Part shown: positions 55,960 to 59,147 of the stretch, piece after piece
Position numbering within the stretch: the first letter of the stretch is position 1
Layout of the letters: every line of letters begins with the position of its first letter
DNA from: Antedon mediterranea
Lineage: Eukaryota; Echinodermata; Crinoidea; Comatulida; Antedonidae
Length of the DNA stretch: 64,000 bases
Reading direction: 5' to 3'
NCBI RefSeq assembly: GCF_964355755.1
Contig: NC_092674.1
Span: 27,702,001 to 27,766,000 of the forward strand
Notes under the pieces: generated by a model
What the model was told of the DNA's origin: nothing
Database searches by the model: none
What the model saw: the letters and a program-made list of their open reading frames with translations, nothing else
Made by a program: the position numbers and the translations under genes

Positions 55960-56595
55960 TAGTATTATTAATATGAGTTTTTACTGTTTCTTCAATTTCA
56001 CTCAAAGATTACTCATTTAATCCTTTAATCTTAAGTCAGTCTCGATGAGCCTCTGCTGTGAACAAACTAGGCGATGTTGACTCTTCATGCCTTGTATCTC
56101 TGGTAGTTTTCCGGGTGGTAGTTGTCCTAGCGGGGTAGTTGTCCGGGGGTGGTTGTCCTTTAGAGGGGAATTGTCCTAGGGGGTAATTGTCCTAGTGGGT
56201 GATTGTCCTAGGGGGTGATTGTCCTATGGGAGTAGTCCAGGGGGTGGTTGTCCATGGGGTTGTTGTCCAGGGGGTGGGGTTGTCCAAAGGGGTGATTGTC
56301 CTATGGGGTAGTTGTCCGAGTGGCTGTTGTCCAGAGGTCATGGTTGCCCGGGGTGGTAGTTGTCCAGGATGTAGTTGTCCTGTTACCAGTTTTATCGTAT
56401 TATCATATTAATGGAATCGGACGAGTTTAGTGTTAGTGTAAATTCTATACCTGCATGATATATAGTTTCATATCGTTACTAACCTTTATTTCTTTCAATT
56501 ATGCAATATCAACCCACTCTTATCTGGTAATTATGTAACTAAAGCTTTTAATTACAGGTTCCTTAGAAGTTTAAATAATGGATTTTATAATTATA
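55960..56595 (+). repeat. Local duplication, copy 1
   Basis: Shares ordered landmarks with 57105-58165: AATATGAGTTT, GAGCCTCTGCT and ACAAACTAGGC; then CGGACGAGTTTA, GTGTAAATTCTATACCTGCA, TATAGTTTCATAT, TTATGCAATATCAACC and CTCTTATCTGGTAATTATGT; then AGAAGTTTAAATAATGGATT. Copy 1 carries the G-rich minisatellite but lacks the family C element and the hairpin of copy 2. Confidence 0.75.
56119..56385 (+). repeat. G-rich minisatellite, TTGTCCTAGGGGGTGA type
   Basis: About 16-18 imperfect units of GGTNGTTGTCC-type sequence, 14-17 bp each, with frequent GGGG runs on the plus strand. G-quadruplex potential is plausible. The open frame across it is a by-product of the period. Confidence 0.8.
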
Positions 56596-56706
56596 TGATG
56601 TTAAGTATTTTTCGTTATTCAGATGTTTTGTTTTGTGTATCTATTTTTTTTAATGTCTTCATCTTCAAAGGACAATTTCACCCTGAAATGAACGAGAATC
56701 AAAGCA

Positions 56707-57063
56707 AAATGCTTTTACATTAGCCAATTACTTGGTTCCCACTAGAGACGCAACGCAAAAACGAGATGCAATGCAAGCCAGTTGACCAATAACAAATCAC
56801 TTATTACGTTGCGTAAAGCTTGGTTCCCACTAGAACGTAACGCAAGGACGTAAACGCAACGCAAGCGTTTTAACCAATGACAAGCAAAGTTATAGACAGT
56901 TAGCAATCACAAGCGAATAAGCCATCGCTTGTGATTGGTCAATTCACTTGCGTTACGTCCTTGTGTTGCGTCGCTAGTGGGAACCACGCTTTACGTCGCG
57001 TTATACGTACTTGCGTTGCGTCTCTAGTGGGAACCAAGTAATTGGCTAATGTAAAAGCATTTT
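56707..57063. mobile_element. Nested family A elements in a 357-bp palindrome
   Basis: Outer arms: AAATGCTTTTACATTAGCCA with ATTACTTGGTTCCCACTAGA (from 56707) against TCTAGTGGGAACCAAGTAAT with TGGCTAATGTAAAAGCATTT (to 57062). They are complementary over about 52 bp. The inner element, about 56815-56993, runs from TAAAGCTTGGTTCCCACTAG to CTAGTGGGAACCACGCTTTA and has a complete hairpin structure. It is inserted in the middle of the outer copy, after TTACGTTGCG. Confidence 0.8.
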
Positions 57064-57387: not shown

Positions 57388-57678
57388 TATATTTTGTATG
57401 TTATAATGTATTTGCCAGTGGAAAAGGTTTATTCACTCTGAAAGTTATGAATTATTATGATTATTATTAATATAGGGTAGGCTGAACAATAAAGAAGATG
57501 TTAGTTAAGCATTGTATGTCGTATGTTATCGTATCATAAACAAACGTAGGCATTAATAAATGATCGGACGAGTTTAATGTTAATGTACTCTGGTTGTAGA
57601 TCCGGTTTTCTAGTGTAAATTCTATACCTGCATGAAATATAGTTTCATATTGTTACTGACCTTTATTTCTTTATTTCT

Positions 57679-58028
57679 TTAAAGATATATTGTCCCCCTA
57701 AAAAAAATGTTTTACATTTTTTGGTTGAATATGTTATTTTAATGTCACATAACAGTTATTCACTCTCACAAAAAATTGGGTCTGAAAAAATGTATTTACC
57801 TGAGAAAAATGTAATTTAAAGCAAAAAATTGTCAAATTGTCTGGAAGACAATGAGTTTTTGGGTAATTTAACTGTTTATTTTGTCTTTTTATAGGTGAAA
57901 TAATTTGTTTCACTCGTTTTTTTTTCTTATGGAAGTGAACAACTTCATTAAAACTGCAAAATGGCCTATTCAAAGTCCGATTTTAAAAATCTTTATTTTT
58001 CATGATTTTGGGGGACAATACATCTTTA
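57679..58028. mobile_element. MITE-like family C with a preserved empty site
   Basis: 350 bp, TTAAAGATATATTGTCCCCC to GGGGGACAATACATCTTTAA. Flanks TTTATTTCTT and ATTATGCAATATCAACC correspond to continuous TTTATTTCTTTCAATTATGC at about 56487-56506 in copy 1 of the duplication. So the element is an insertion, and TTAA is the likely target duplication. Confidence 0.88.
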
Positions 58029-58071
58029 AATTATGCAATATCAACCGACTCTTATCTGGTAATTATGTAAC

Positions 58072-58118
58072 CATGGAGAAATAAGTTAGGAACTAACTAA
58101 CTAACTTATTTCTCCATG
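58072..58118. mobile_element. 47-bp perfect hairpin insertion flanked by a 7-bp duplication
   Basis: CATGGAGAAATAAGTTAG (58072-58089) and CTAACTTATTTCTCCATG (58101-58118) are exact inverted complements around an 11-nt loop. ATGTAAC sits directly on both sides (58065-58071 and 58119-58125). The paralogous segment near 56534 has a single ATGTAAC and no hairpin. Confidence 0.85.
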
Positions 58119-58377
58119 ATGTAACTAAAGTAACTTAGAAGTTTAAATAATGGATTTTATAATTGTTTGTTTGTTATTACAATTTATTTTTATAGGCCTA
58201 CCAACTTTTATTGGAGAATTTATAAAAGAACAATCGCTATTGTTATACAACTAATACCCGCCCATACACGTCCAATGTGGTACCATGGAAAATGGCCTAT
58301 CGATATGCCGTATGGGTGTTACCATCCGTTAGTTTGCACTTAAGTTCGAGTACTTAAAGTGATACTTATACAGTTAC

Positions 58378-58555: not shown

Positions 58556-58880
58556 CAGTTATAAATCAAAGAGCTGTATAAGCAGGATATAGAAAAAAAT
58601 CAAGATCCAATAAGTTAAAACTGCTTCAATATAGATTTATTTTTACGACATGTTTCGGGCATAGCCCATCATCGAGGCTTATACTGGTGCTGCCTAAATA
58701 CTAATACTATACTAATTTTGATCAGTATTATTATTATTATTGTGAATTACTCATTATCGATGATGGGCTATGCCCGAAACATGTCGTAAAAATAAATCTA
58801 TATTGAAGCAGTTTTAACTTATCATTGATCTTGATTTTTTCTATATCCTGCTTATACAGCTCTTTGATTTATAACTGTAT
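58553..58880. mobile_element. Large fold-back element with GGGCATAGCCC arms
   Basis: Left arm 58553-58675 and right arm 58758-58880 are inverted complements over about 123 bp. They contain CTGTATAAGCAGGATATAGA, AACTGCTTCAATATAGATTT and CGACATGTTTCGGGCATAGC. The 82-bp spacer (58676-58757) also recurs inverted at 59062-59147. It has no coding capacity. The arm core GATGATGGGCTATGCCCGAA followed by ACATGTC resembles terminal motifs of Penelope-like elements. Confidence 0.8.
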
Positions 58881-59061
58881 ATCATCATAATCATTATACA
58901 GTTATGCATTTATATAAACTGTAAAAAAAGTGGATTAAATTGTTCATTATAGATAAGTAGCCTAGATCATCTGATAAACATTCTCATATGGTACTTCTCC
59001 ACCCCCACCCACCGCCCACCATCCACCTCAAAGAAACAGCTTCTTTCATTTATAAGTAATG

Positions 59062-59147
59062 AGTAATTCACAATAATAATAATAATACTGATAAAAATTA
59101 GTATAGTATTAGTATTTAGGCGGCACCAGTATAAGCCTCGAATTTCA
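59062..59147 (-). repeat. Inverted third copy of the fold-back spacer
   Basis: GAGTAATTCACAATAATAAT to GCACCAGTATAAGCCTCGA is the reverse complement of 58672-58755 with few changes. It shows that the element exists in more than one arrangement. Confidence 0.75.

Follow-up and report, generated by a model that had tools for sequence, protein, structure and literature searches.

A hairpin between two 7-bp repeats in the Antedon mediterranea genome is very probably the excision footprint of a P-superfamily transposon

The window analysed here is a 64,000-nucleotide stretch of the Antedon mediterranea genome. At positions 58065-58125 it reads ATGTAAC-CATGGAGAAATAAGTTAG-GAACTAACTAA-CTAACTTATTTCTCCATG-ATGTAAC. 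Direct reading confirms the first-pass annotation, which described an 18-bp stem, an 11-nt loop and a second 18-bp stem between copies of ATGTAAC: CATGGAGAAATAAGTTAG occupies 58072-58089, GAACTAACTAA 58090-58100 and CTAACTTATTTCTCCATG 58101-58118, and 58072-58118 form a perfect hairpin. The two ATGTAAC copies, a 7-bp target site duplication (TSD), lie at 58065-58071 and 58119-58125, both on the forward strand. The folding energy of the hairpin, computed as DNA, is -16.9 kcal/mol (z = -8.7), which none of 200 shuffles equalled, and the 18-mer of the arm has two matches in the window, both at this locus, where 0.07 would be expected.

A paralogous segment of the window carries the same site without the hairpin. 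Ungapped repeats, on which this comparison is based, align 56491-56539 with 58023-58071 (96% identity) and 56562-56597 with 58134-58169 (94%). The hairpin-free site, placed near 56534 in the first-pass annotation, proves to lie exactly at 56533-56539: a single ATGTAAC continues directly into TAAAG, with no insert or scar, so that both the filled and the empty states exist in the window. Several other repeats are found nearby. A MITE-like insert of about 350 bp with inverted ends TTTAAAGATRTATTGTCCCCC (57673-58022) is missing from the paralogous copy at 56495, and a palindromic element at 56706-57063 has 58-bp arms that are 97% complementary, with the repeated motifs GGTTCCCACTAG and GCAACGCAA inside. 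Overlapping inverted repeats (58610-59141; 66-nt arms 100% and 85-nt arms 98% complementary) stand beside AT dinucleotide arrays, and an array of 16-bp units at 56100-56380 is built around GTTGTCC/GGGGGT.

The 354-Mb genome contains 96 exact copies of the 18-mer arm, and 701 when up to two mismatches are allowed; reversed controls give 0 and 20. The pattern CATGGAGA-N5..19-TCTCCATG was found at 268 places, against six for its reversed control; such scar counts are lower bounds, set by the pattern length, and the genome was read in pieces. Nearly all exact copies belong to small structures, mostly of 25-51 bp, with a constant order of 7-bp TSD, arm, junction, inverted arm and the same TSD; about five of 92 places could not be clearly assigned. 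Our sample comprises all places holding the exact 18-mer plus some others (a few of the 76 scars), and the 76 distinct scars are those with both CATG ends recognisable. Perfect 7/7 TSDs flank 59 of the 76, with 53 different sequences among these 59, and only 14 of 5,700 comparisons of 7-mers across loci agree; their consensus shows a palindromic preference, GTwnwAC. The first-pass annotation had suggested a genome search for copies flanked by different duplications, and had counted a scarred empty site or a single occurrence as arguments against transposition. Many copies with differing 7-bp duplications are indeed present; the empty site is free of a scar, and the exact 18-mer occurs 96 times.

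Could a replication error have created the palindrome at this one site, as the first-pass annotation had also considered? Template switching is able to produce a perfect inverted repeat together with a short direct repeat. However, the same arm is found at hundreds of sites, each with its own 7-bp duplication, and it matches the terminal inverted repeat (TIR) of a real transposon, described below. Copy number and parental TIR already refute this origin, whose probability we regard as vanishingly small.

All exact copies of the 18-mer were screened for the parent, and every clearly readable one was a scar. The parent was located through a second TIR subtype, CATGGAGAAATCAGTTAG, which has 33 exact copies in the genome; two of these lie 6.1 kb from each other in inverted orientation. 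The element at this pair (L120) measures 6,097 bp. Its TSD is GTTTGTG, its 32-bp TIR, CATGGAGAAATCAGTTAGGAAGGAGTAACATC, is perfect, and one of its fragments matches PF21789, the P-type RNase H C-terminal domain (E = 9.4e-9). Another copy, L122 (C3:13478500-13483200), has the AAATAAG subtype of the TIR (CATaGAGAAATAAGTTAGGAAGGAGTAACATC, which differs by one substitution), and part of its transposase matches PF21787 (E = 1.4e-13); its N-terminal ORF gives a sub-threshold match to zf-AD and no match to THAP. An obviously intact transposase is found in neither of these parents, and the nearest solved structure to the transposase is that of P transposase (6p5a), a weak match (E = 0.07). With the terminal 736 bp of L120 as query, only L120, L122 and L121 were recovered; L121 is a 197-bp element (L121:54-250; C8:7825603-7825799) with TSD GTTATAT, in which a 20-nt TIR tail is joined to about 180 bp from an end of the element.

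Bounded by TIRs, flanked by 7-bp TSDs and carrying P-type (TNP-like RNase H) transposase domains, the parent is, judged by its sequence, a member of the P superfamily. Of the first 17 positions of its TIR, 13 agree with that of Drosophila P, the start of which was used as printed in PMC2895639 and PMC11368186. At the other P-type transposase loci that were read (L115, L116/L117, L118 and L119), no intact element ends in the scar-family TIR. A search for scars with the second TIR subtype of this family gave 22 places, against 0 in controls. The genome holds at least about 250 such scars and three recognisable copies of the transposon, a ratio of roughly 100:1.

The parental TIR redefines the arms at the window locus: a left tail of 21 nt, CATGGAGAAATAAGTTAGGAA, ending in TTAGGAA (58072-58092, forward strand), is separated by an 8-nt filler, CTAACTAA (58093-58100, no strand assigned), from a right tail of 18 nt that reads CATGGAGAAATAAGTTAG on the reverse strand (58101-58118). 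When the left tail is compared with the outer 21 bp of the subfamily TIR, it is identical apart from one substitution in L122, the sole surviving copy of this subtype. The filler repeats CTAA from the right arm beside it, and 7 of its 8 nt are present in the arms or flanks, which 2.4% of shuffles match or exceed. What had been described as a tiny insertion, shorter than MITEs, resolves into 47 bp made of two cut TIR tails and a repair filler; another option of the first-pass annotation, a DNA-transposon footprint, is the one upheld.

We are confident that the structure at 58065-58125 is the footprint that a DNA transposon of the P superfamily left on excision. A P-like element of several kb, with a 32-bp TIR beginning CATGGAGAAATAAGTTAGGAAGGAG, would have inserted at ATGTAAC and duplicated this target. 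Transposase would later have excised the element with staggered cuts, one strand being cleaved at either tip and its partner some 18-21 nt inside each TIR; the donor chromosome would have retained two 3' single-stranded tails with the same TIR sequence. Because such tails are not complementary, the break would have been closed by microhomology or by polymerase-theta-like end joining, which in the window would have copied the 8-nt filler from the CTAA of the right tail. The resulting scar, two TSDs and two TIR stubs, would be inert and would pass through the germline. The sequences themselves show the anatomy, the parent with its TIR and TSD, the limit on arm length, the types of junction, the templated and single-copy fillers and the inheritance of scars of this family through segmental duplications; how and where the DNA was cut, and by which enzyme it was repaired, we infer from the products. 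Tc1/mariner, hAT and piggyBac elements, which leave small footprints or none, are not known to leave 18-21 nt of TIR, and we rejected them as sources.

The scars have the composition expected of such a footprint. At the window locus, as at the 59 scars with perfect TSDs, both duplications enclose two outer TIR tails, and these tails stop well within the 32-bp TIR: the longest arm is 22 nt in the 76 scars and 21 nt in a sample of 47 scars collected with a lax arm length. This limit is sharp, with TIR positions 1-18 having 96 (subtype S1) and 33 (S2) exact matches in the genome and positions 13-32 only four, all in L120, L121 and L122. The junctions are of end-joining types, with microhomology and templated fillers. 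In the lax sample (n = 47), 13 are blunt, 19 have 1-3 nt of microhomology, 9 a filler of 1-3 nt and 6 a longer one, a mix that is not far from that of random joins, so that microhomology by itself is weak evidence. Fillers of at least 5 nt resemble the arms or flanks with a mean longest match of 7.3 nt, compared with 4.9 nt in shuffles (0 of 500 as good).

Are these palindromes instead mobile micro-MITEs of 30-50 bp, inserted by a transposase acting in trans? Their many copies with differing, perfect 7-bp TSDs would be in keeping with this, as would the recurrence of some interiors at unrelated sites, the 27-bp class being present at 33 places, the 30-bp class seven times and the 35-bp class five times. 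However, the recurrent classes contain no more than 1 nt of filler, the commonest showing 1-3 nt of microhomology (the 27-bp junction uses the TTA/TAA repeat within the tail), as expected if the same tails were joined repeatedly and independently. In contrast, all 25 classes with a filler of at least 3 nt are single-copy, and no homogeneous family sharing an interior at many sites was found. The arms, moreover, end at 21-22 nt of a 32-bp TIR, and these small structures do not have the internal transposase binding sites that Drosophila P elements possess (PMC7776569). With fillers that derive from the arms, and with each of these 25 classes present as a single copy, we conclude that the small structures do not transpose. 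Self-insertion of the palindromes is very unlikely. The new class of micro-palindrome envisaged in the first-pass annotation is not supported either; we found no scar with a filler of at least 3 nt at two unrelated sites.

Hundreds of scars against some three copies of the element in the assembly might also suggest somatic or programmed excision, in which the germline would keep transposons that the assembly, made from body tissue, shows as removed. Paralogous segments, however, carry identical junctions: L057-059, which are 99.7-100% identical, share the same rare 33-bp scar, and scars are likewise shared by L006/L026/L106 (about 97% identical) and by L048/L049 (99.5%). Since segmentally duplicated loci have the same scar, the scars were inherited through germline duplications, and we consider somatic excision to be extremely improbable.

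Excision footprints were also found for a second P-like family, which provides an independent check. This family (L116/L117) consists of a 5.55-kb element with TIR CTGAGACAACAATCAAAGAG and 7-bp TSDs CGGACAC and GCTAGCT. Its copies L116:1499-7050 and L117 (C1:2.82 Mb and C3:37.95 Mb) are 99.5% identical, with an equal score at C8:6.21 Mb, and the element has an open transposase frame of 794 aa, with CTGAGACAACAATC as its TIR and TSDs of 7 bp; the family was probably active recently. We found 16 small palindromes of the form TGAGACAAC...GTTGTCTCA, against 0 in controls. Seven have perfect 7-bp TSDs (a single duplicated locus accounts for three of them), and in another three the TSDs agree at 6/7 positions. 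Their arms never exceed 17 nt. The second family has left scars of the same kind as the first. We also compared L115 with L116 as a possible second filled/empty pair; L116 has 4 extra bases.

How do these scars compare with those of known elements? Drosophila P transposase cuts one strand 17 nt inside the TIR, leaving 17-nt 3' tails, and its transposition is GTP-dependent, the protein having a GTP-binding domain (PMC7776569). Excision junctions of P{wa} have the same layout as ours, with two complete TSDs, outer TIR tails and 1-3-nt microhomology, blunt joins or arm-templated filler (PMC2895639); fillers longer than 3 nt make up 13% of P{wa} junctions (PMC2895639) and 6 of 47 here. Unlike the P{wa} footprints, the present scars are natural, inherited and spread over hundreds of loci. 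Their arms reach 21-22 nt instead of the 17 nt of Drosophila P, and the TSD is 7 bp, as opposed to 8 bp in canonical P. In the latter respect they resemble the Galileo/1360 branch: Galileo, a member of the P superfamily, has a 7-bp TSD with the palindromic consensus GTANTAC (PMC4168063), close to our GTwnwAC, although the TIR here is short (32 bp), whereas those of Galileo are long and internally repetitive. Like P-type MITEs the scars are short, TIR-bounded and TSD-flanked, but they have no common interior, their fillers are unique and their arms break off where cleavage is presumed to occur.

P elements presumably restore their donor copy by template-directed repair. In wild-type flies, most recovered P{wa} products include template synthesis (PMC2895639). 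L121 looks like the outcome of interrupted template repair followed by end joining, a type of product described for P{wa} (PMC2895639), and such products appear rare here compared with pure end joining. This difference from flies, if real, would help explain why the family disappeared. We lean slightly towards a form of transposon self-erasure, in which this P-like family left nearly all of its germline insertions by end joining and not by template-directed gap repair, so that inherited scars number in the hundreds and hardly any element is left; the stagger of the cut may be longer (about 18-21 nt) than that of Drosophila P.

P-element excision scars are already known from fly crosses, and in the literature searched we found nothing comparable described as a natural archive across a whole genome. 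With hundreds of germline end-joining events at one defined break, a natural repair spectrum becomes measurable in terms of microhomology, filler templating and tail length, and, with scars outnumbering elements by roughly 100 to 1, the loss of a P family can be put to the test. Repeat annotators could take such scars for a micro-MITE family.
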